Shown: positions 2,322 to 40,353 of the stretch, in pieces
Numbering within the stretch: position 1 is the stretch's first letter
Layout of the letters: every line of letters begins with the position of its first letter
Source of the DNA: a virus
IMG/VR virus record: IMGVR_UViG_3300027749_000107
Coordinates: 1 to 64,000 of that record
DNA: 64,000 nucleotides
Direction: 5' to 3' (one strand)
The notes under the pieces: generated by a model
What the model was told of the DNA's origin: nothing
Databases searched by the model: none
The model's input: the letters and a program-made list of their open reading frames with translations, nothing else
Position numbers and translations under genes: made by a program

Positions 2322-3779
2322 TTATGCCTCCAATTTAATTAACGTTAATGTAACGGTAATTATAGCTGCACTACTTCCGTTATTATAAATCTTAATAGGT
2401 ATGTTAGTAGTTGGTGTAGATTCGCTGCTATACCCAACTACTGCTGGTGAAAAATATTGTGTAACACTAGAGGTTGTAATTACTTCTGCAATAACACCCG
2501 ACCCAGGAACTGGATCAGTTGTTTTAATTCTAGATGCATCAGCTGATTGTGCTGAAACACTAGAATAAATAGTTACCCATGCTGCTGCAGATGTTTGTAC
2601 ACTTAATATTGCATATCCTTTAAATCCAGTAATAGTATACGTTCCGCTGTTAGCTGCTGTTAAACTTGCACTTGTTGCCGATGCAACAGTTCTTGATGTT
2701 AATCCACTACCGCCACCAGTTGACGAAATAACACCAGTTACTTGATCAATTGTGATAGTATTACCATCAACTTTTACACCGCCTAATTGTGTATTGCTTG
2801 CAATAGCTAATCCAATTGTACCAGATGAATTAGTAATACCACTTGTCGCTACTGCAGGAATAATAACTCCACCTAATGTAGTTGTATTAGCAGCTGATAA
2901 CCCTGCACTAGGAAGAGCTGATAAAGTACCGTCCATCATTAAAAATCCTGAACCAATCTTAATCCCGCCTAACTGAGAAGATGATGCAGTTGCTAATCCG
3001 ATTGTTCCGCTATTATTAGTAATGCCACTTGTTGCCACTGCAGGAACAATTACACCGCCTAATGCACTAGCAGTAGTAGCAGTTAACGTGTACGCATTTG
3101 GAATTGTTGGTTTATTTAAAACAACCCCTAATCCACTTACTGCGTCCCAATCACTTTGTACCTGTGCTGCAGGTATAGTTGGTTTATTTAAAACAACACC
3201 TAATCCACTTACTGCGTTCCAATCACTTTGTACCTGTGCTGCAGGTATAGTTGGTTTATTTAAAACAACACCTAATCCACTTACTGCGTTCCAATCACTG
3301 TGTACCTGTGCTGCAGGTATAGTTGGTTTATTTAAAACAACACCTAATCCACTTACTGCGTTCCAATCACTTTGTACTTGTGCAACATAGTTGGCATTAA
3401 TTACTCCACTACCATTAATCGTAATAGTAGAATTGTCAACTTTAACACCACCTAATTGTGTGTTGCTTGCAGTAGCTAAACCAATTATGCCGGCGGTGTT
3501 TGTTATACCGCTAACGTCTACTGCTGGAATTCTAACACCGCCTAGATTACCAGTATTTGCAGCTACTAGTGTATAAGGTACTATTTCTGCATTAATTGTA
3601 CACACTCCTGCTGTTTTAGTTAGCGTAATATGTGAACCTGGTTGAAATTTGTCAATCACTCCATTTAGACCATTATATACTTCTGAAAAATTATTATTAA
3701 TTTTTATTGCACCACTTCGTAATGTGTCACCGGATTTGTCGTTGCTAGTTGACCCAACGTTTATTGTTTGCTTAGCCAT
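2322..3779 (-). CDS. Repeat-rich fibre-like structural protein
   Basis: A 485-residue protein with no enzymatic motif. After a short N-terminal segment (GSTSNDKSGDTLRSGAIKIN) come alternating modules of two kinds: VPAVxxSGITNxxGxIGLAxAS-x-QLGGxK units, and four tandem 24-residue units around SDWNAVSGLGVVLNKPTIP (about residues 130-225). The last 130 residues form a separate beta-rich domain. Such short Gly/Asn/Pro repeats are typical of trimeric phage fibres and connectors. The start at 3779 has a good AAGGA ribosome site and lies 13 bases after the stop of the giant wedge gene; the protease gene follows directly. A short tail fibre or fibre-attachment protein is likely, but the exact T4 counterpart is not recognisable. 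Confidence 0.75.
   Translation of the reverse strand: MAKQTINVGSTSNDKSGDTLRSGAIKINNNFSEVYNGLNGVIDKFQPGSHITLTKTAGVCTINAEIVPYTLVAANTGNLGGVRIPAVDVSGITNTAGIIGLATASNTQLGGVKVDNSTITINGSGVINANYVAQVQSDWNAVSGLGVVLNKPTIPAAQVHSDWNAVSGLGVVLNKPTIPAAQVQSDWNAVSGLGVVLNKPTIPAAQVQSDWDAVSGLGVVLNKPTIPNAYTLTATTASALGGVIVPAVATSGITNNSGTIGLATASSSQLGGIKIGSGFLMMDGTLSALPSAGLSAANTTTLGGVIIPAVATSGITNSSGTIGLAIASNTQLGGVKVDGNTITIDQVTGVISSTGGGSGLTSRTVASATSASLTAANSGTYTITGFKGYAILSVQTSAAAWVTIYSSVSAQSADASRIKTTDPVPGSGVIAEVITTSSVTQYFSPAVVGYSSESTPTTNIPIKIYNNGSSAAIITVTLTLIKLEA
3100..3385 (-). repeat. Four tandem 72-bp repeats inside the fibre-like gene
   Basis: The 72-base unit encodes a 24-residue repeat (SDWNAVSGLGVVLNKPTIP plus AAQVQ) and occurs four times in a row. 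The copies are almost identical at DNA level, differing by single bases such as GAT/AAC for Asp/Asn and CAC/CAA for His/Gln. Identity at silent positions points to recent expansion or gene conversion, so copy number is likely to vary between related phages. Confidence 0.9.
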
Positions 3780-3792
3780 TTATTATCCTTAA

Positions 3793-6700
3793 TTAAAATC
3801 TTATATTATTGTTGTCAAACGTGTTATTATCGCTGTCAAATGTTTCTTGATAATATCCGTACTCTACTCCCAATGACGATTGTATAAAGTCCATTGCAGT
3901 CTGTGTAGCTACCCATGTAGAACCTGTTCGTTTAATAACAGTTATTATTGTTTTTTCTGCTAAATTAAATGTATGTGTTAATCTAACTGATTTATAAATT
4001 CCGTTAACTGAAAAATCCGCAGGTAACGTTTCTTCAATTCCTAACCGTTCATTATATACTGTATAAGGCGCTTTTTGTAAACGAATGTTACCAACAAAAA
4101 ACTCCCAGTATGCGTAATCTTCCGTAAATGTTAAGCTAGAATGCGCTTCTTTACATTTATACGTATAACTACCATACGTAACTATATCATTAACATTGTA
4201 ACCTGTTCCTGTTGTCCATGATGAACTGTCATCATACCCTCCAACAAACACTTCAATGTCATTACATTGCCCAAACCCTTTACTAACAATATCTGCAGAT
4301 TCTACTCCTTTCCATCGTGTTGTAGATTTTTTAGGTATAAACGATAGTAATACTACAATTGAGGTTCCGTATGATCTATATAATGGCGAATTGCTATTAA
4401 CTTCTACTACCGTGTTACGTTGCTTTGTACACTGTTCAGTAATAGTAGTATCAGTATAAGGAATTGTTTCACCTGCACCTAGTTCTTGAACAACTGAATG
4501 TGGCATAACATAATCTGATATGCCAGTACCTAATGTGCCGCGGCGAAGTTGACTTAATTCATTTCCGTTTTTTATAAAAAACTCAATTCGTTCGCCGTTA
4601 ATTTCAACAATGCCAGGTTTATTAGCCGTTGGATCCGGCACTGTAAACATACTCGCATCGTTTACAAAAATACTAGTATCTGTGTTTAATAACGCTTTTA
4701 CTAATGTTGTTTGTTTTACTTCTGGCATCCGCTTGTAATGCGTACGATTTAGCATGTCCTTAAACTGCATATATGTATACGCAGTAGTTGTGTCACTTGC
4801 GTTAGTATACACCTTAATAGATAACGAATCTGATACTTTGCCCGGGACTACTTCTTCAAGACCGCTAAATTTATTTTCAAAATTGTCACCGTCTATTATT
4901 ATGTCATCAATTGCTATACCGGTAGCATCTATTGGTAACTTTATTCCAGAAAGTTCACTTGAATTAAATGTACCACCGGCTAACGAAACATCATAGTCAT
5001 TATCATTTGAGGTAGCACCGTCGCTTGTTACTTCACGAATAATAAAGGTACAACTTTCTGGTACAGGTAGCCCTAAATTTATAAAATGTTGGTTGAAAAA
5101 AGTTACTGGAATGATAACATTAGTTACTGATCCGGTTGCAATCGGCGATTCCATAATATCTCCGCCATCGATTCTTATTGGGTCAGAACTTCCGAAAGTT
5201 GGCTCATAATAAACAGTTAATACAGTGCCTTCACTAGGCACACTAAATCCATCTTCTGGAAATGGAATAGTTATACTTGCTGCACCGCCGATGTATTTAA
5301 ATACAAGGTCATTAAATTTAACATTTACATTATCCCATTTAATTGTATCAAAATTTGAACGATCCCATCCGTGTTTTACACCAAAATTTAACCCAGATAT
5401 TTCAACACCACCGTAATCTATACCAACTAACAACTGTGCTAAATCTTTACCAAGTTCACCAGGTGCCGGATTATAATAATGTTCAATTCTATCTACTGCA
5501 TTTAATGCAGAGTTAGCTCTTACATACGTAACTTCTATAATACTGCCTTTGGCAATAGTACGGTTAAACTCTATCATTCCAGATAGTTTTGTATAACCAT
5601 TAACTTTTATTGATACAGTTGACACTTTGTAATGGTCTCGTATTTCTATAGCACCGTTAACAACTACCGATGTATTACCAACAATTGTACTTGGTTCCCA
5701 CTTTAATGGAAATTGGGTTCTTTTTCCAGTTACTAGTAAAACTGGAATTGTTTCAGTTTCACGCAGATCAGTCTGTGTTACACTATACGTATTTCTATCA
5801 AATTTTAAATTAATAGTATTGGTACGAATTACACTCTTACCAATAACTGCAATTGCGTTAGCAACTGATCCGGCATGTGATAAACCGCCAATAATGTGAA
5901 CAGTTGGTATTGTTAAATATGATTTACCAGGTAATACTATGTTAATACGATTAACTTTACCATTTGCAATATATGCAACTGCAGTTGCACCGTATCCGGA
6001 CTCACTTGAAATAACAACCTTTGGTGATAACGTATATCCCGACCCACCGTCTATCACACTTATATTAACTACTGAAAAACCTACGTTATCTGCCCACGAT
6101 TTCCATGGATATTGTTGGATAGCATCATTAGTGGACTGTAATCCTCCGCTAGCGGTTGTAGTTACTACTACCGGAACAACTCTTTTAAGATTTAGATCAT
6201 ATGTTGCAGGTAAATCAAAATCAGACACCTCAGATGCACTAGTCTCTATATTAGAATATAAACTAACATATTCTCTAATTTGAGTTCTATATGGTTTTAC
6301 CTCTGATACATAATCTTCATAATTAGATAAATTATCATTTTGATACGTAACTGATTGATGTAAATTTCCAACATTATGAACAACATTAACAAAACTAGTT
6401 TTAAATATCCAATCAATGTATGTTTGTTCACTCATTGCATATCGAACACTAGTAAAGAATAATTTTAAATAAGCATCGTTACTTAATATATCTTTAATTG
6501 AATTTAATATAATACGGAGTTCTGTTGCTGCACAGTTATCGTATACAATCGAGTCATATAGTACACCATCATATCCAATAGCAGTATTTATAAAATTATA
6601 CAATGTTGACGTAAACTGAATAGTACCGTCTTGACTACCAACTATTTTATAAGACGCTGTCCAATCATATTCAAAAGATTCGTTATCAGGAATAAGTTCT

Positions 6701-25051: not shown

Positions 25052-25876
25052 ATGCTTACACCAAAGGTAAATTATTTAAACAACAAGGACATGCTATTAG
25101 AAATTCATAGATCAAAAAGCTCATTTTGTGTCTTTACAGATCCGGCATTTCATCAATATGATATTATCTTACCTAACATAGACAAAGTTAATATCCGTAC
25201 AATTGCCGAAGCTAAACGGAATCAAGCAAAGCGATTAGGTGATTTAAATTATGCTAAACGAAAAAGCGAAGGCGAAAAAATTAAACAAACTGAATGCGAA
25301 ATTAATTATAAATCTATTTCAAAAAATGATGTAGTTTTTAGAATTATGTCGTATGATCATATACCACTAAATGCAACAAGAAAAAAGAATCCTAAAACAG
25401 AAGCCGATAAACGAGATAAGGTAAATTTTCCGCCGTTTCAACACTGGAAATTTGTTAATAATGAACTAGTATGTGTAGGTAAAAGCCACTGGAGTGGAGA
25501 CTTAGAAACTGGGCATTTTGATAAAACTGCAGGGCAAATTACTGATACATTAGCTCGTATGATGATTAAATTATGCGAACGATATGCAACACGCGGCAAC
25601 GTAAGAAGTTATACATACAATGACGAGATGCGTGGGCAGGCAATATTACAACTAACACAAATTGGATTACAATTTGACGAATCTAAATCAGATAATCCAT
25701 TTGCATACTTTACTGCTGCAGTTACCAATTCGTTCGTAAGAGTTATAAATATAGAGAAGCGCAATCAGAATATTAGAGACGATATTTTAGAAATGAATGG
25801 AATGAATCCGTCGTATACTAGAACAGGTTCAGAAGAATATGAGGTAGCAATGCGAAGATCAGAGGATTACGAGTGA
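25052..25876 (+). CDS. 55: Late-transcription sigma factor gp55
   Basis: A 274-residue protein whose C-terminal half carries the gp55 signature: DNPFAYFTAAVTNSFVRVIN at about residue 215-235, then EKRNQNIRDDILEMNGMNPS. gp55 is a minimal sigma factor that binds host core polymerase and recognises the TATAAATA box of late promoters; in T4 it acts with coactivator gp33 and clamp gp45. T4 gp55 is 185 residues, so this protein has an extra basic N-terminal part (KKNPKTEADKRDKVNF). It is the first gene after a sigma70 promoter. Its TGA stop overlaps the GTG start of the nuclease gene. Confidence 0.92.
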   Translation: MLTPKVNYLNNKDMLLEIHRSKSSFCVFTDPAFHQYDIILPNIDKVNIRTIAEAKRNQAKRLGDLNYAKRKSEGEKIKQTECEINYKSISKNDVVFRIMSYDHIPLNATRKKNPKTEADKRDKVNFPPFQHWKFVNNELVCVGKSHWSGDLETGHFDKTAGQITDTLARMMIKLCERYATRGNVRSYTYNDEMRGQAILQLTQIGLQFDESKSDNPFAYFTAAVTNSFVRVINIEKRNQNIRDDILEMNGMNPSYTRTGSEEYEVAMRRSEDYE

Positions 25877-27621
25877 TTGAATATCAAAAAATTTTAACTA
25901 CATTAACAGATTTAGACAGGCGACCTCGCCTGTCTTACACAGCATTATTAAAAACACCGTATGCTGAACAAATATCACAAATTTCTACATTATTGTCTAG
26001 TACAAATGCTAGACAAATAATTTATCATATTAAACAACAATCACTTGTAATTCCGTGTTGTGAATGCAGTAACCAGTTAAGTTGGCATTTAGATTTACAA
26101 CAATATCGAGCATATTGCAGTCCAAAATGCACTGCAACTTATTCTACTGTTATAAAAAAGAAAAAGAATTTAGAACTTCTTGGTGTCGAATGGCACACTC
26201 AAACCAACGATTGGAAAACTAAAGTAAAATCTACTAGTTTAGAAAAATACGGTGTTGAACATTATTCTCAAACTGACGAATACAAACAACGTGTTATTAC
26301 TTCTAATTTAGAAAAATATAATGTATCACATGTTATGCATTTATCAGAGACTAAGCAAAAAATTAAAAATACTAATTTAATTAAATACGGCTTTGATAAT
26401 CCTGCAAAAAATTATAATGTTCAATCTAAAATTAAAGAAACGAATCTTATTAGATACGGCTGCACTAATCCGTTACTAAATTTAGATATTCAACAACAAA
26501 TTAAAGATACTAACATTATTAAATACGGTTATATTAATCCTCTAAGTAATGCAAGTATACGAGAAAAAAGCGTTGCTACTAAACGAGAACACTATTTTTC
26601 TGCAGATACATTAGAAAAACTTACAAACGCATCTTGGCTAGAAAATGAACAGCATTCAGGTAAAACTGTACACGAGATTGCTAATGATATAGGTATTAGT
26701 TCTAGTCAACTATGCAAAATTTTTCATTCATTAAATATTAATATCGTCCGGCATTCTGCAAGTGAATTAGAACGAAGATTATACTTGCATTATGATCAAA
26801 AAGGTGTTAAAATAATTACGAATAATAGAACTATAATTTCACCTAAAGAATTAGATTTATATTTTCCAGACTATAATTTAGCAATAGAAATTAACGGATG
26901 TTATTTTCATTCAGAACAGTATAACAAAACACAGATGTATCATTTACAAAAAACTAATGCATGTATATCACAAAAGATTGCATTATTACAATTTTGGGAT
27001 ACAGAAATTAATGAAAAATGGGAACAAACTATTAATTTAATTGATAGTAGATTAGGGCTACATTCTAAATTATACGCAAGGCACACTAACCTGCAAGTAG
27101 TTAATTCAGCTGAGAAGGCACAGTTTATATCAACTCATCACCTGCAGGGAGACGTTAACAGTTTAATTAACCTAGGTCTGTACGATACTACTAATAGATT
27201 AATTATGGTTGCAACGTTTGGTAAGCCAAGATTTACTAAGGCTTCTACATTTGAACTATTACGGTTATGTTCGTTATCAGGGTTACAAGTAGTAGGCGGA
27301 GCAAGTAAACTTATTAACCATTTTGTTAAATGTTATATGGAACCCGATGATGTATTACTGTCGTATTGCAATCGTCGTTATAGCACTGGTAATGTTTATT
27401 ACAAATTAGGATTTACGTTAGAATCTACATCACCACCGGGATTTTTTTATATTGATAAAGCCGGAAAGTATGCAGGTTCACGGTATCAATGGCAAAAACA
27501 CTTAATGAAACACAAACTATTAACATTTGATAACACATTAACTGCATCACAAAATATGGAAAACAACGGATTTTTTAAAGTTTGGGATTGCGGACAACTA
27601 GTATTTAAATTAAAAAAATAA
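25873..27621 (+). CDS. Free-standing mobile (homing-type) nuclease with repeat DNA-binding region
   Basis: A 582-residue protein starting at GTG, which overlaps the gp55 stop (GTGA). Its parts in order are: a Cys4 zinc site at about residues 62-86 (CCEC ... CSPKC); five tandem units of about 22-26 residues of the form LxKYGxxNPxxxxxIxxKIKxTN at about 115-235; a helix-turn-helix (HEIANDIGISSSQLCKIFHS); a PD-(D/E)XK/Vsr-like nuclease core (ELDLYFPDYNLAIEINGCYF) near 335; and a GNAT-like tail (LLRLCSLSGLQVVGGASKLI). This layout matches phage mobile endonucleases that sit between conserved genes. Homing is inferred: no intron is present, and no activity can be read beyond the nuclease residues. 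Confidence 0.75.
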   Translation: MIEYQKILTTLTDLDRRPRLSYTALLKTPYAEQISQISTLLSSTNARQIIYHIKQQSLVIPCCECSNQLSWHLDLQQYRAYCSPKCTATYSTVIKKKKNLELLGVEWHTQTNDWKTKVKSTSLEKYGVEHYSQTDEYKQRVITSNLEKYNVSHVMHLSETKQKIKNTNLIKYGFDNPAKNYNVQSKIKETNLIRYGCTNPLLNLDIQQQIKDTNIIKYGYINPLSNASIREKSVATKREHYFSADTLEKLTNASWLENEQHSGKTVHEIANDIGISSSQLCKIFHSLNINIVRHSASELERRLYLHYDQKGVKIITNNRTIISPKELDLYFPDYNLAIEINGCYFHSEQYNKTQMYHLQKTNACISQKIALLQFWDTEINEKWEQTINLIDSRLGLHSKLYARHTNLQVVNSAEKAQFISTHHLQGDVNSLINLGLYDTTNRLIMVATFGKPRFTKASTFELLRLCSLSGLQVVGGASKLINHFVKCYMEPDDVLLSYCNRRYSTGNVYYKLGFTLESTSPPGFFYIDKAGKYAGSRYQWQKHLMKHKLLTFDNTLTASQNMENNGFFKVWDCGQLVFKLKK

Positions 27622-27854
27622 TGACTATGAATAATACACTGGATATAGCACATCCTGCACTTGATGATGCTTATCAAATTCTTAAAGAAGAACACTTGGA
27701 TGCTAAAGCTAGTTATATTGAAAAACTGTTTGAAGAAACTTATAAATGCAAAGTAAATTTTGACAGTAGCTTTGGCGGTTCAGTTACATTTAACACAAAC
27801 AAAGATTTAGTTTGGTTTTTATTAAAACACGACTCAACAGGAAATAATGGATAA
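27621..27854 (+). CDS. Small protein of unknown function between nuclease and gp47
   Basis: A 77-residue protein whose ATG overlaps the nuclease stop as TAATG and whose end overlaps the gp47 start by eight bases, so it sits inside a tight operon. It has an N-terminal helix (DDAYQILKEEHLDAKASYIE) and a beta segment (KVNFDSSFGGSVTFNTNKDL). No family recognised. Coupling on both sides is the main evidence that it is real. Confidence 0.65.
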   Translation: MTMNNTLDIAHPALDDAYQILKEEHLDAKASYIEKLFEETYKCKVNFDSSFGGSVTFNTNKDLVWFLLKHDSTGNNG

Positions 27855-28860
27855 TTTATTTAAAAAAGTAGCAGTATTTACAGATCTGCATTTTGGACTA
27901 AAGTCAAACAGCAGTGTACACAATCAAGATTGTGAAGATTTTATAGATTGGTACATTAATAAAGCTAAAGAACAAGGGTGTGATGTTGGTATCTTTATGG
28001 GAGATTGGCATCACAATCGCAACAGTTTAAACATTACAACAATGGATTACAGTCTAAGAGCATTAGAGAAATTAGGCCAAGCGTTTGATAAATTTTACTT
28101 TTTTCCAGGTAATCACGACCTATATTACAAAGATAAACGTGACATACACAGCGTTGAATTTGGCAAATATATCCCCGGAATTACTGTAGTTCATCATCCA
28201 ACTACCATTGGAAATGTTACATTATGCCCTTGGTTAGTACATGATGAATGGAAAGAAATTGGTAAGAAAGGTGCGAAATATATCTTTGGACACTTTGAAT
28301 TACCGCATTTTTTTATGAACGCAATGGTACAAATGCCCGATCACGGTGAGATTAGTTTAGAAGCTTTTAGCAGTTATGAACTTGGTTTTAGTGGTCATTT
28401 TCACAAAAGACAGCAACGTGAAAACATGCATTACATTGGTAATGCATTCCCTCATAACTATGCAGATGCATGGGATGATGCAAGAGGTATGATGACATTA
28501 GAGTGGGGCGGACAACCAGAATTCTTTACATGGCCTAATCAACCTACATTTAGAACTGTTAAATTAAGTCAACTTTTAGACGACGCTGATAATATTCTTA
28601 AACCAAATCAACACTTAAGAGTAGCATTAGATATTGATATTAGCTTTGAAGAAGCTAGCTTTATTAAAGAAAAGTTTATTGGAGATTACAAATTAAGAGA
28701 ACTTAAAGTAATTGAAGAACGCAAATCGATAGACGTAACAAGCAATGTAGATATTGAAGCATTTGAAAGTATAGACGAAATTGTAGCTACTCAAATTGTA
28801 AACATTGACTCAGAAACATATAACAAAAATACATTATTATCAATCTATAGCAACCTATGA
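27847..28860 (+). CDS. 47: Recombination nuclease subunit gp47 (SbcD/Mre11-like)
   Basis: A 337-residue metallophosphoesterase with the family's metal-binding motifs in order: FTDLHFG at residues 11-17, FMGDWHHNR near 50, FFPGNHDLY near 90, GHF near 147 and FSGHFHKRQ near 180. With gp46 it forms the Mre11-Rad50-type complex that resects DNA ends in recombination-dependent replication and host DNA degradation. Size matches T4 gp47 (339). The ATG follows AGGAA, and its stop overlaps the gp46 start as ATGA, the usual stoichiometric coupling of this pair. Confidence 0.95.
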   Translation: MDNLFKKVAVFTDLHFGLKSNSSVHNQDCEDFIDWYINKAKEQGCDVGIFMGDWHHNRNSLNITTMDYSLRALEKLGQAFDKFYFFPGNHDLYYKDKRDIHSVEFGKYIPGITVVHHPTTIGNVTLCPWLVHDEWKEIGKKGAKYIFGHFELPHFFMNAMVQMPDHGEISLEAFSSYELGFSGHFHKRQQRENMHYIGNAFPHNYADAWDDARGMMTLEWGGQPEFFTWPNQPTFRTVKLSQLLDDADNILKPNQHLRVALDIDISFEEASFIKEKFIGDYKLRELKVIEERKSIDVTSNVDIEAFESIDEIVATQIVNIDSETYNKNTLLSIYSNL

Positions 28861-34797: not shown

Positions 34798-35607
34798 ATG
34801 AAAATACAAGAAATTATAGAAACTTCTGATGAAAGGTTTCTACGTGAAGCAGATGGTTTTATTAAACAAGGACTTAAAGCCTTAGGTAACAAGGTATTTC
34901 CTAGTGCAGGAAATAGAATGGCCGGCGCATCAGAAAAGATGAGTATGTTACGTGCTGACTTTAGTGTACTAGCAACAGCTGGTAAATTTGCAGCATTAGT
35001 AGCACCATTTTGGACATATTATAAAAATATGTCAAATGTAGAAGACAATTATAAAAGCGGTGCATACACTGTAGAGCAATATAAAGAGAATCATCAAATA
35101 CAATTAGGATTATTAATTGAAGAAGAGGCTGCTATATTAGGAACGCTTGGAGCCATGGCTTCGATAAATGTTTTATCAATGTTGTTTAATGTATTACCTA
35201 TTTTTGGTCCTATTTTAGGAGCAATATTTAGAGGGTTAGCACCCGCAGCAGGTGCTTATATGTTAGTTTGGCTTAACACAGATGAAGGGCGTAAAGCTCT
35301 AGCATCATTAGTGTCTGCAGAATTTATTAAAAACACTGGAGCAGTAGCTGAAACAGCAATAAATGCAATACGTGATAAAGCACACGAAGCATTAGGCATG
35401 AAACCAGAAACTGATCCAGCATACACAAATACACCATCTCCAAACGGTACTACGCCAAATGCAGATCCTGCTAAACCCGATGATAAAAAAGATGATAAAA
35501 AAGATGCAGCTCCTAAATCAAAATATAATCCAAAAACTGACTTTACACCAGAAAGATTTAAAAGAGATGCTAATGGCGAGTTAACATTAGCATACGATAA
35601 AGGCTAA
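34798..35607 (+). CDS. Late hydrophobic protein with capsid-leader-like N-terminus (possible internal/ejected membrane protein)
   Basis: A 269-residue protein of no known family. The N-terminus MKIQEIIETSDERF has I-x-E sites like those cleaved by prohead protease in T4 internal proteins. Residues about 60-80 (AGKFAALVAPFWTYY) and 110-160 (ILGTLGAMASINVLSMLFNV; PIFGPILGAIFRGLAPAAGA) are hydrophobic and Gly/Ala-rich, enough for two or three membrane spans. The C-terminal 70 residues are charged, Pro/Asp/Lys-rich and likely disordered (KPDDKKDDKKDAAPKSKYNP). It has its own perfect late promoter and ribosome site. A pore or pilot protein released with the DNA, or a holin, are both possible; the leader favours the first. 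It meets the convergent small ORF end to end. Confidence 0.7.
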   Translation: MKIQEIIETSDERFLREADGFIKQGLKALGNKVFPSAGNRMAGASEKMSMLRADFSVLATAGKFAALVAPFWTYYKNMSNVEDNYKSGAYTVEQYKENHQIQLGLLIEEEAAILGTLGAMASINVLSMLFNVLPIFGPILGAIFRGLAPAAGAYMLVWLNTDEGRKALASLVSAEFIKNTGAVAETAINAIRDKAHEALGMKPETDPAYTNTPSPNGTTPNADPAKPDDKKDDKKDAAPKSKYNPKTDFTPERFKRDANGELTLAYDKG

Positions 35608-35640
35608 CTAAAGCAGCGGCATTCTAGATAATTTAGTTAG
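35604..35640. repeat. Inverted repeat at convergent gene ends
   Basis: CTAACTAAA at 35604-35612 is perfectly repeated in inverse as TTTAGTTAG at 35632-35640, with a 19-base loop. It spans both stop codons, where two genes converge with no spacer. There is no T tract, so a simple intrinsic terminator is not supported, but a hairpin could form in either transcript. Confidence 0.45.
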
Positions 35641-35823
35641 TTCAATATTTTCTTCTATAACATTATACATTACCATACGATCTTCATAACTTAGGTTATA
35701 CAGAAGATCGTTTATGGAAACTCCTCCTCGCATATACCACGCAATTTTAAATAATTCATGTTTAAATCGTTTGGCCTCGTTATCAAGCCTAACTAGATAT
35801 TGGCTAATGTCATCACGCGACAA
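35608..35823 (-). CDS. Small tail-assembly-chaperone-like ORF, probably made as a -1 frameshift extension of gp26
   Basis: A 71-codon frame read leftward directly after gp26. It contains the segment LFKIAWYMRGGVSINDLLYN near residues 25-44 and ends ENIELTKLSRMPLL, a pattern seen in small helical hub or tail-assembly chaperones of T4-like phages. The only start codon at its head is TTG at 35823, with no Shine-Dalgarno. The frame is open upstream through the gp26 end, and a slippery T TTT TTC lies at 35841-35847. I therefore read it as the extension of a gp26 fusion of about 350 residues. Independent TTG initiation after gp26 termination is the alternative. Confidence 0.65.
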   Translation of the reverse strand: MSRDDISQYLVRLDNEAKRFKHELFKIAWYMRGGVSINDLLYNLSYEDRMVMYNVIEENIELTKLSRMPLL

Positions 35824-35828
35824 TCCAA

Positions 35829-36659
35829 TTAGGCGGGATCGAAAAAATTTGTTTGATCTAACTCAATCGATACTTCGGATTTATGACCACATTCTTTGTT
35901 ACTGCATACTACATTTACTTCAGGTATTTTCCAAATAGATTTATTCTTATTAAATTTTTCTTTAATTAAATCAAATACCGTTTTGTCACAATTTTGCAGC
36001 CATTCTGCAATAAAATCTCTTTCAGACACTAAAATTTTACCTGTATCAATTGATTCAATGCTAGTAGTATAAATTTCATTTTGAATATCACCTAATTCAA
36101 TAAACAAACTAGAAATAAGTTTCTTTTGGTCGTCTGCGTCTGCATCTTTAGTTGCAGCTAATCGTTGTTGCAATTGAAAATTCCTTAAAGAAAAATCAGT
36201 AGTTTGTCTATATGTTAACGGCTGTAATTTGATAGTTAATGTTCCATATTCAATAGTGTTTTCATATTTGCATGATGCAAAGTGATCAATTACCGTGCCT
36301 AAGTCTACATCATACTCATTTTCTGTCTTACATTTAGAACACGTATGTACAATTTCTAATACATTACCGTGAGTTGCAATTCGTATTGCAGTTAATAGTA
36401 AATCAGTATCTAATGTAGTTACTTCCCATCCGTCTTTAATACTTGGACAGCAGCTTTCAAACAATTTGGTTGTACTTTCACCTGTTAATAATGCATCAGG
36501 TGTTTTCATTATAATGTCATCCATGCCTGTCATGCCGTAAATTGGCATGTGCAATGGATCACCGCTAATTGATCCTAGTTTATTGTAAATTCCTTTTGAT
36601 GGTAAAGAAATAAAAATTCTAGGTTGTCTATAGTATTCTTGTAAAGGGTTTTGTGCCAT
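35829..36659 (-). CDS. 26: Baseplate hub protein gp26-like (T4 baseplate family) with zinc-site cysteines
   Basis: A 276-residue protein with the family's N-terminal pattern RIFISLPSKGIYN and MPIYGMTGMDDIIMKTPDAL, followed by LLTGESTTKLFESCCPSIKD. Two Cys pairs, CSKC near residue 110 and CSNKEC near 253, look like a zinc site. T4 gp26 (208 residues) takes part in hub assembly around the tape measure. It has a late promoter at 36687-36695 and is divergent from the tape-measure gene. Its last codons, AAT TTT TTC before GAT CCC GCC TAA, contain a -1 slippery site, so both a 276-residue form and a longer fusion are expected. Confidence 0.78.
   Translation of the reverse strand: MAQNPLQEYYRQPRIFISLPSKGIYNKLGSISGDPLHMPIYGMTGMDDIIMKTPDALLTGESTTKLFESCCPSIKDGWEVTTLDTDLLLTAIRIATHGNVLEIVHTCSKCKTENEYDVDLGTVIDHFASCKYENTIEYGTLTIKLQPLTYRQTTDFSLRNFQLQQRLAATKDADADDQKKLISSLFIELGDIQNEIYTTSIESIDTGKILVSERDFIAEWLQNCDKTVFDLIKEKFNKNKSIWKIPEVNVVCSNKECGHKSEVSIELDQTNFFDPA
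35841..35850 (-). promoter_or_regulatory. Predicted -1 programmed ribosomal frameshift site in gp26
   Basis: On the minus strand the bases read AAATTTTTTC, with gp26 codons AAT TTT TTC. T TTT TTC (35841-35847) fits the X XXY YYZ rule exactly, and A AAT TTT (35844-35850) overlaps it as a second fit. Slipping back one base gives Phe-Phe, then Arg-Ser-Arg-Leu-Ile-Gly and then the small ORF, with no stop between. The zero-frame stop TAA lies nine bases after the heptamer. Confidence 0.65.
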
Positions 36660-36720: not shown

Positions 36721-39700
36721 ATGAGCCAAGATTTTGAAAATGACATGCTTGAACTTCAAAAACAGAACAATGCGCTTCTTAAGTCTCTAGGTGGTAAATT
36801 ATCCCCAGGAAGTAGCGGAGGTGGTAGTAGCAGTGGAGGTGGTAGTAGCAGTGGAACAGGTGGGTTTGATGCACTAGGTGGTGTATTTACTAATGCCGCT
36901 AGCGGACTTAATTCGTTATGGCAAGGCACTCTCAATGTATCAAACGGCTTTGACGGTCTTACTACTGCAATACAACAAAATGGCGGAGCATTAGGTAAAG
37001 TTTTTGGTGGCATTTCAAAAGATATTGGCAATGCAATTTTAGAAACTAATAAACATATGAATACTGCTGGCCAAGTAGGCGCCAACATGAATAATGACAT
37101 GGCTGAATATGATCGCTTAATTAAAGGCGCTCGGATGACCCATGAACAATATAATGACATGGTTAAAAAAGGCGCAGTTGACTTAGACGGATTAGGGTCT
37201 ACTGTTAATCGATCACAGAAAAACTTTTTAGAAGTTACTAAAGTACTCCAAGAAGGAAATGTAGCTGCTAAAATGAAAGAAATGGGGCTTTCAGCTGAAG
37301 AAGTTACAGAAGTTGCAAAAGCATCCATGGCGCATCAACGCGGCATGGACATGTCCGACGAAACAAACAAACGCCGCGCTGCAGAAGCAGCAATGAATTT
37401 AGCTGCTTCTATGGAAGAAACTACTCGTATTACCGGATTAAGTAGAAAACAGCAACTAGATGCAATGGATAAAGCACAAGCAGATACTAGAACTAAGATT
37501 GCGTTATCTAGAATGGATAAAGGTGCGCAAGATCGATATCGCGGCGCAGTGTCTGACTCCGCAGGAATGGGTGATGCATTTAAAATTGTACTTAAAGAGA
37601 CATTAACCGGCGGCGTTAAAAGCGAAGAAGGTCGCAACGCCATGGCTGCATTAGGTACATCGGCTGCAGACGTGCAACGATACGCATTGTCACTAAAAGA
37701 TTCGTCGGTCGAAGGTCAACAACGCAGTCAAGAACTTGGTAACATTGCTCGCTCGCGTGCTGAAGAATGGAATATGTCAGAAGGCGCATCTAACTTAGGT
37801 CAGTTTGGCGAAGGCGGCGCAGCTGAAATGTTTAGAAAAAATTACGAAACTGACACGATGCGTGAAACTGTTCGTGCTAAAATAGACGAGAACAAAGGCG
37901 GTATTGACGTTGCAACTGCAATGAAAATGCAAAAAGATGAAGTTAGACATAATATTGTTGGAGAAAACGAAAAAGGTGAAGCAATTAAAACACCAGGTCA
38001 TGAACTTGCTACTACTATTAACAAAGCCGATCGTGCATTATCAGATTTAAGTGCAGGAACAACAGAAGTATTTGGGAAATTAGTTGAAAAGTCTAACAGC
38101 CTTGTACAATCTTTTGGTAATCTAAATGAAGTATTAAAACCTAAAACTCAAGAACAGTCGCATCCAAGTGAATTGCTAGGCGGAGCTGTAGAACAATTTA
38201 AAGCTAAGATTCCATTCTATGATGCATATAATAAAGGCGTACAAAATCGATCTAATGAAAAAACTACAACTGATCAACTAGTTGCACCTGTAGAAAAAAT
38301 AAGTCGTGCATCAGGATCTCCAACTCTTGATAGTTTTCTTAATGGTTCCGGTTCATTTAATGACATGTTTGAGCATTTTGATCCAAAAGGTACTCCTGCA
38401 GAGTTACATGGGACAGAATTAGTAGCAACACAAGCACAAATGAAGAAACTAGTTGAACAATTAGTTCCAAATATGCAAGCATCAGCTGCTCCTAAACCAG
38501 CAACGTCAACTTCTACTTCAGATCCAATTGGTCAATTAAAATTACCAGCAAATCCTGTACCAACTACTGCAACTGTACAACAAACTGTTGCACCTCCTAC
38601 AGCTAAATCTGAATTTGAAACTAATTTTATTAAAACAGTTGCAGACCGTGTTGAAAAAACACTCGCAACTGCATTTGAACCTGCAGTAAAAAATTTACAT
38701 GCACAAGCAGTAAAATCAGCACAGCCGCAGACTGCAGAAGTTAAACAACCTGAAACAAAAAAAGAAGTACCTAAAGTTGAACCCAAAGTTGAACCCAAAA
38801 AAGAAGAAGTTAAGAAAGAAGAAGTTAAACCAGTTGAACCAAAACCAATTGACGATAAATTTGCACAATTATCTAAAACTATTGACGCTGTTACTGGAGA
38901 AATTCAAACAGGCGGTATTAGAACTAAAGAAGGTGCTGAAAAAATGGCATCTCTTGGCCCAGCTGGTATGGATTTACAAAAAGCAATACTAGCACACAAG
39001 AATGCAACTACTGATCAACAAAAAGCTGATGCAATTAACGCAGAAACCACTGCAGTTGCTAAAATTAAAGATTATCAAAGCAGTAAAGCAGCAACTGATA
39101 TGCAAGTATATGCATCAAAAGAGAAACTTAAAACTGAAAATACTATAGCACCAATTAAAACAACTGCTGATCTTAATAAAATGTTGTTTGGGAATGAAGA
39201 AGGACTTAAAACATCTTTAACTCCTGCGCCTAAAGATGAAAAAGATAAAGAGAAAGCAAGATTAGAAGGACAGTCAATAATTGATCAAATGTCAAAACAG
39301 TCACCTATTAATGGTATGATGACTGATATGAAATCATTTGTTCAAAATACTGAAAAGAATGGTGACGTTATATCAAGTAAAATTGCCGAATCAGTAAAAC
39401 TTCCTGACTTTGAATCTACCTTTAAAGGGTTGTCTGAGCAAATAAGTGGTTCTATTACTACAGTGTTACCATCACTTGACAACACCGATCAATTAAAAGA
39501 TGCTATGGAGATATTTAAGTCTCCTGATTACACTGAATTCTTTACATCTATGACTGATAACTTATCATCTGTAGTAGATAATACCGGTGATGCATTAGAA
39601 ATAGACGAAGATACAGAAGATGATAGTAGTAGCATGTTTGATAGTTTACCTGATTTTGGTGAAATATTGTCCGATGCAGGTAACTCTATATCAACTGGGT

Positions 39701-40353
39701 TTGATGATATGTTTTCTGATGATGAAAAACCAGAAGAAGGCAAAGACGAATCATCGATTCTTGATGGATTTCCAAGTGTATCAGGAATGTTTAATAGTAT
39801 AGGCAACAGTTTATCTAGTGCATTTAAGTCTGATAAACCCTCTGCTACTAGTGGCAATGTAAAATATGAAGAAATTCCTCAAGCAGAAATAGAAGCTAGG
39901 AACAAAAAACTTCAAGCTACTATTGGACAAAAAGAAACTAATCCGTCTGTATTACAGGAATTAGCTGCAGAACGTGCTAGACAAGCAGATTCCACTAGAT
40001 ATAAACAAAAAGAAGTACCGAAGCCAGAGATTGCTAAGATTAATGACACACATCAAACGACTGCAACTATTAAATCGCATGATTTAAGCCATCCGTCGAT
40101 TTCTGCTCAATCATTAAAACATACTGAACAGCATACTGCACCTAAACCACCGGTTATTGAACCACCTAAACCGGTAGAGCAACCTAAACCATTAGTTGCT
40201 GCAATACACGAAACTACATTAAAAGATCTTCATGAAGCTCTGATGCAGTTAAATAAGACTATGGGCCAAATGGCACAACATACTGATAATATCAGCTCAA
40301 ATAGTAGAAAACAAATCGATGCAACATCAAGTTTATCTAATAGTAGATGGTAA
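36721..40353 (+). CDS. 29: Tail tape-measure protein
   Basis: A 1210-residue helical protein with the composition expected of a tape measure: a short N-terminus, a Gly/Ser linker at about residues 29-50, long amphipathic helices (AAEAAMNLAASMEETTRITG), a Pro/Lys/Glu-rich segment near 685-720 (KVEPKKEEVKKEEVKPVEPK), acidic segments near 960-1040, and a C-terminal helix ending NSRKQIDATSSLSNSRW. It would run inside the tail tube and set tail length. Length suggests a tail longer than that of T4 (gp29, 590 residues). It sits beside the gp26/chaperone-like pair but on the opposite strand. The gp29 symbol reflects role; sequence identity to T4 gp29 is not evident. Confidence 0.75.
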   Translation: MSQDFENDMLELQKQNNALLKSLGGKLSPGSSGGGSSSGGGSSSGTGGFDALGGVFTNAASGLNSLWQGTLNVSNGFDGLTTAIQQNGGALGKVFGGISKDIGNAILETNKHMNTAGQVGANMNNDMAEYDRLIKGARMTHEQYNDMVKKGAVDLDGLGSTVNRSQKNFLEVTKVLQEGNVAAKMKEMGLSAEEVTEVAKASMAHQRGMDMSDETNKRRAAEAAMNLAASMEETTRITGLSRKQQLDAMDKAQADTRTKIALSRMDKGAQDRYRGAVSDSAGMGDAFKIVLKETLTGGVKSEEGRNAMAALGTSAADVQRYALSLKDSSVEGQQRSQELGNIARSRAEEWNMSEGASNLGQFGEGGAAEMFRKNYETDTMRETVRAKIDENKGGIDVATAMKMQKDEVRHNIVGENEKGEAIKTPGHELATTINKADRALSDLSAGTTEVFGKLVEKSNSLVQSFGNLNEVLKPKTQEQSHPSELLGGAVEQFKAKIPFYDAYNKGVQNRSNEKTTTDQLVAPVEKISRASGSPTLDSFLNGSGSFNDMFEHFDPKGTPAELHGTELVATQAQMKKLVEQLVPNMQASAAPKPATSTSTSDPIGQLKLPANPVPTTATVQQTVAPPTAKSEFETNFIKTVADRVEKTLATAFEPAVKNLHAQAVKSAQPQTAEVKQPETKKEVPKVEPKVEPKKEEVKKEEVKPVEPKPIDDKFAQLSKTIDAVTGEIQTGGIRTKEGAEKMASLGPAGMDLQKAILAHKNATTDQQKADAINAETTAVAKIKDYQSSKAATDMQVYASKEKLKTENTIAPIKTTADLNKMLFGNEEGLKTSLTPAPKDEKDKEKARLEGQSIIDQMSKQSPINGMMTDMKSFVQNTEKNGDVISSKIAESVKLPDFESTFKGLSEQISGSITTVLPSLDNTDQLKDAMEIFKSPDYTEFFTSMTDNLSSVVDNTGDALEIDEDTEDDSSSMFDSLPDFGEILSDAGNSISTGFDDMFSDDEKPEEGKDESSILDGFPSVSGMFNSIGNSLSSAFKSDKPSATSGNVKYEEIPQAEIEARNKKLQATIGQKETNPSVLQELAAERARQADSTRYKQKEVPKPEIAKINDTHQTTATIKSHDLSHPSISAQSLKHTEQHTAPKPPVIEPPKPVEQPKPLVAAIHETTLKDLHEALMQLNKTMGQMAQHTDNISSNSRKQIDATSSLSNSRW

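Follow-up and report, generated by a model that had tools for sequence, protein, structure and literature searches.

A probable −1 programmed ribosomal frameshift, with a covarying RNA stem, at the end of a gp26-type tail assembly chaperone gene in a T4-like phage

The gp26 homologue encoded in a 64,000-nt stretch of viral DNA (IMG/VR record IMGVR_UViG_3300027749_000107, positions 1 to 64,000; hereafter the window) ends on the minus strand in AAT TTT TTC GAT CCC GCC TAA, and a second open frame continues behind it in the −1 register. This arrangement raises the question of whether some ribosomes pass from one frame into the other, and whether the two products form a pair of tail assembly chaperones. 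From sequence comparison, we consider it very likely that a −1 programmed ribosomal frameshift at T TTT TTC, paused by an RNA stem, yields gp26 as the short chaperone (TAC-N) and a 350-aa long form (TAC-NC).

The gp26 gene, its slippery end and the −1 frame

We characterized the zero-frame product of the gene (35829-36659, minus strand; 276 aa). Family searches matched it to the T4_baseplate family PF12322 (E = 4.8e-13) and to phrog_150, baseplate hub (E = 2.8e-15), placing the putative short form in the family of the T4-like gp26/gp51 chaperones. The protein was modelled by AlphaFold2 with a pLDDT of 84.6, using an input alignment of the window and viral-contig rows only, as for the extension below, and it matched T4-like baseplate hub assembly proteins (best E = 3.5e-20). 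A fold search against the PDB returned generic helical matches only (best Z 7.0), and no convincing sequence relative was found in the PDB.

As originally predicted, T TTT TTC lies in frame near the end of gp26, at 35841-35847 (minus strand, read from 35847 to 35841). The genes listed for the window contain 84 in-frame heptamers, and several of them end in long −1 frames because the genes overlap. Within the window alone, a heptamer followed by an open −1 frame is not above chance, and the case therefore depends on relatives. Environmental viral contigs were scanned with gp26 (11 loci, then 80, partly overlapping), and 83 rows comprising the window and related viral loci were analyzed, 68 of them distinct including the window.

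The sequence TTTTTTCG was found at the end of gp26, at the same place and in the same frame, in 83 of 83 rows, and every complete row keeps the −1 ORF; the alignment check suggested with the original prediction thus came out in its favor. An X XXY YYZ motif kept in frame across relatives is expected of −1 programmed frameshifting. An overlapping heptamer, A AAT TTT, had also been pointed out and is present in the window, but the conserved one is T TTT TTC: in L007 and other relatives AG precedes the Ts, replacing the A AAT TTT context. The zero-frame stop is mobile, lying 3 nt past the heptamer in 10 rows and 9 nt past it in 73. Judged from these alignments, it is conservation that gives the heptamer its significance.

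The −1 frame runs stop-free from the heptamer, in agreement with the prediction, and reaches a stop at 35608-35610 (35608-35847, minus strand). It comprises 79 codons, including those for the two Phe residues shared with gp26, and would encode the TAC-C domain; joining residues 1-273 of gp26 to the 77 further residues gives a conceptual TAC-NC of 350 aa. This ORF is open in every complete relative and nearly always 79 codons long. Stops were absent from 69 of 69 distinct copies, compared with averages of 4 and 7 in the other frames, and divergence by codon position in the region past the stem was 0.347/0.194/0.537. This third-position bias and the lack of stops indicate that the extension is very probably translated and selected at the protein level. 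A frameshift site is expected to lead into such a coding and conserved frame.

The extension was modelled by AlphaFold2 as a helical structure (pLDDT 89.7). Searched alone it had no matches in Pfam or phrog, and a fold search against the PDB gave nothing above Z 3.2. The two fold searches, for gp26 and for the extension, thus speak neither for nor against a TAC fold. Its similarity to the C-terminus of T4 gp51 is weak by profile (hhalign E = 4e-4, probability 34%).

We also surveyed the surrounding genes. The gp26 gene and its extension had been predicted to lie beside the tape measure gene, on the opposite strand. The opposite-strand neighbor is indeed there, a 1210-aa ORF at 36721-40353 (plus strand), but its identity as the tape measure is that of a candidate, suggested by its position and by weak similarity of an equivalent. 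The product itself has no family match in Pfam or phrog and gave no BLASTP hit to its RaK2 counterpart; in phage BF, the protein at the corresponding position matches tape measure families (2.7e-6). Among relatives, such counterparts vary between about 600 and 1210 aa in length, and their C-terminal ends are conserved (SLSNNRF-like). Variable length with a conserved C-terminal end is expected of a tape measure, because the length of such a protein sets tail length. One relative (L006) has an additional open frame (2926-4035, minus strand; up to 370 codons) that separates gp26 from the candidate tape measure gene.

On the other side, a plus-strand gene (34798-35607) converges with the extension and ends one base short of its stop codon. 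Its 269-aa product has strongly hydrophobic segments and no family match, and an ORF is found at the same place and strand in several relatives. Farther away, we dismissed a second frameshift candidate in the window, A AAA AAA in the ORF at 25873-27621: it stands four codons ahead of the stop, and that stop is overlapped by an ATG belonging to the following ORF. The plus-strand ORF with the dismissed site (582 aa, GTG start) lies between a late sigma factor gene (25052-25876; phrog_12791, E = 1.6e-73) and 27847-28860, by appearance a putative gp47-type nuclease gene, and its repeated K.G..N motifs suggest a putative homing endonuclease.

A covarying RNA stem downstream of the heptamer

A potential 10-bp RNA stem follows the heptamer on the minus strand. 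The 5′ arm, GCCUAAUUGG (35825-35834), includes the zero-frame stop UAA, and the 3′ arm is CUAGUUAGGC (35787-35796); both arms were assigned from pairing and covariation. A spacer of 6 nt (35835-35840) separates heptamer and stem, and its length does not vary among the 67 distinct sequences aligned. In this gap-free alignment, the stem begins exactly 6 nt past the heptamer in 67 of 67 sequences, even where the gp26 stop has moved. This spacing falls within the 5-9 nt at which a downstream structure is expected, and the stem would stimulate frameshifting.

Standard pairs occupy 98.5% of the cells in the 67 distinct sequences. Both sides have changed in five pairs, with 25 doubly changed cells in all; the rows are related to one another, and such counts refer to sequences, not to independent events. 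None of 500 shuffles matched the stem on any measure, and RNAalifold, unaided, returned the identical ten pairs. Because the stem sits in coding sequence, codon-aware null models were also applied. When codons for the same residue were permuted among rows, none of 2,000 permutations reached the observed pairing of 0.985 (maximum 0.966), and synonymous redraws also fell short of it (mean 0.73, maximum 0.784). These controls cannot account for the compensatory changes in the stem. Codon use in the 3′ arm is uniform, with AGG for Arg in 60 of 60 sequences and GGG for Gly in 7 of 7.

To place this signal in a wider context, we compared ten jumbo phages of other genera. T TTT TTC followed by a −1 ORF was found in Sinorhizobium phage Phosso, Agrobacterium phage Atu_ph07, Xanthomonas phage XaC1, Escherichia phage 121Q, Klebsiella phage RaK2, Serratia phage BF, Pseudomonas phage PA5oct and Salicola phage SCTP-2, and T TTT TTT with a −1 ORF in Xanthomonas phage XacN1 and Stenotrophomonas phage RAS14. 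Stems of 10-11 bp at a spacer of 6 nt, unrelated in sequence to the stem of the window lineage, occur in Phosso, Atu_ph07, PA5oct and XacN1; the remaining six of the ten have no significant simple stem at that place. A similar signal is present in Prochlorococcus phage P-SSM2, in which phrog_150 matches gp26 in one frame (profile positions 4-234) and its C-terminal part (227-278) matches the −1 frame (1.4e-10). There, TTTTTTC is followed after 6 nt by the stem GTATGGCTCA/TGAGTCATAC. We see about an even chance that this geometry (T TTT TTC, 6 nt, 10-11 bp) is older than the split of cyanophages, several jumbo phages and the present lineage, that several replacements of its sequence have left the geometry intact, and that T4 lost the stem later through gene duplication.

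Alternative origins of the long product and the proposed mechanism

The small ORF could instead be an independent gene, with its translation coupled to the gp26 stop and beginning at its own TTG or at another start. Public annotations call a separate hypothetical protein in 121Q (gene 595), BF and Phosso, and in Phosso and 121Q an ATG overlaps or lies near the gp26 stop. The window itself offers, as predicted, only one start in the first part of the frame, a TTG at 35823 with no Shine-Dalgarno sequence ahead. Across the alignment, however, the first 25 codons of the −1 ORF contain no ATG, GTG or TTG in 60 of 83 rows, and independent initiation is therefore no general explanation. Protein conservation starts at the heptamer codons themselves (FFR.L..), and although the stop is mobile, neither the T6C run nor the 6-nt spacer ever changes. 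We regard a separate gene as very unlikely.

The long product might also come from transcriptional slippage on the T6 run, without ribosomal frameshifting: a run of six Us is present, and one U added or two lost would lead into the same frame. The run is of six Ts only, however, and bacterial polymerase slippage usually requires longer runs. The phase of the frame fits X XXY YYZ, and the covarying stem stands 6 nt away, as is typical in ribosomal frameshifting. Polymerase slippage as the source of TAC-NC appears very improbable, and the agent that slips is presumably the ribosome, not RNA polymerase.

The original proposal of a −1 frameshift that extends gp26 with a chaperone-like C-terminal domain is thus well supported by an invariant heptamer, a selected −1 ORF and a covarying stem. 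The heptamer, the −1 frame, the RNA stem and the protein-level selection on the extension are apparent from the sequences themselves. Under ribosomal frameshifting, the majority of ribosomes would read gp26, as the short tail assembly chaperone of a T4-like phage, through to the TAA at 35829. A minority would pause at the 10-bp stem while two Phe tRNAs occupy UUU UUC, slip back by a single base and then read 77 further residues in the −1 frame. The product would be the 350-residue TAC-NC, with a C-terminal domain predicted to be helical. In analogy to lambda gpG/gpGT, the tape measure protein would be coated by many copies of the short form and few of the long one, and the domain that only TAC-NC has may recruit the tail tube; neither form need be retained in the virion. 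We infer both this ratio of TAC-N to TAC-NC and the role of the two forms in tail assembly.

In the public records of Phosso, 121Q and BF, the extension is wholly or partly annotated as a separate hypothetical protein (L012, 3334-3564; L015, 3337-3546; L017, 3364-3543). These entries look like annotation errors, and our results correct how a hypothetical ORF that recurs behind gp26 is annotated in T4-like phages, both jumbo and environmental.

Relation to known tail assembly chaperones

The TAC genes of T4-like phages have reportedly been identified by Vladimirov, Gautam and Davidson (Virology 2022, 566:9-15), whose abstract reportedly describes frameshifting as conserved in several groups of T4-like phages and names 26 and 51 as the genes used by T4. 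In T4, gp51 is paralogous to gp26 (PF12322 match to residues 1-201, E = 3.9e-52) and has a further C-terminal domain in frame, and gene 26 lacks the T6 run. In T4 and, as proposed, in the window phage, the gp26 family provides TAC-N and only the long form has the C-terminal domain; the two forms are separate genes in T4, whereas the window phage has one gene and a −1 frame. In the simplest reading, the putative zero-frame TAC-N and shifted-frame TAC-NC correspond to T4 genes 26 and 51, which supports the view of these genes as stand-ins for an ancestral frameshift.

The likeness to lambda gpG/gpGT, part of the original prediction, has already been published for T4-like phages. The slippery sequence in lambda is G GGA AAG, whereas the window phage has T TTT TTC with a stem and carries gp26 on the strand opposite its presumed tape measure gene. 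The proposed system resembles that of lambda in a −1 shift close to the end of the short form, a C-terminal domain in the long form and a probable role with the tape measure protein, features described for lambda in PMC5009743. The comparison with lambda G/T, as with P2 E/E′, is one by analogy.

No such frameshift had been known to the original prediction for gp26 of T4-like phages, a statement contradicted by Vladimirov et al. 2022 as cited in passages of PMC12846349 and PMC10885494. The relevant part of PMC10885494, summarizing that study, describes some T4-like phages with a short and a fused long copy in place of the frameshift, and that of PMC12846349 (2025) cites it for the slippery poly-T signals that T4-like phages have in their TAC-N genes. 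Because these genes and signals are already published, the frameshift itself is not new in kind; the covarying stem of fixed geometry is possibly the likeliest new contribution. The Vandenendeviridae and Andersonviridae, according to the same section of PMC12846349, also have a T-rich slippery motif at the end of TAC-N, a conserved GTTTTT, and none of their genomes has a stop interrupting the −1 frame. They differ from the window phage in belonging to other phage families and in having the gene upstream of the tape measure gene, and that section describes no stem.

With its many natural variants, this compact and well-defined RNA signal should be useful in work on how the ratio of short to long chaperone depends on spacer and stem. 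Compared with these systems, the locus adds a new lineage to a known device of tailed phages, and its RNA signal is unusually clear.
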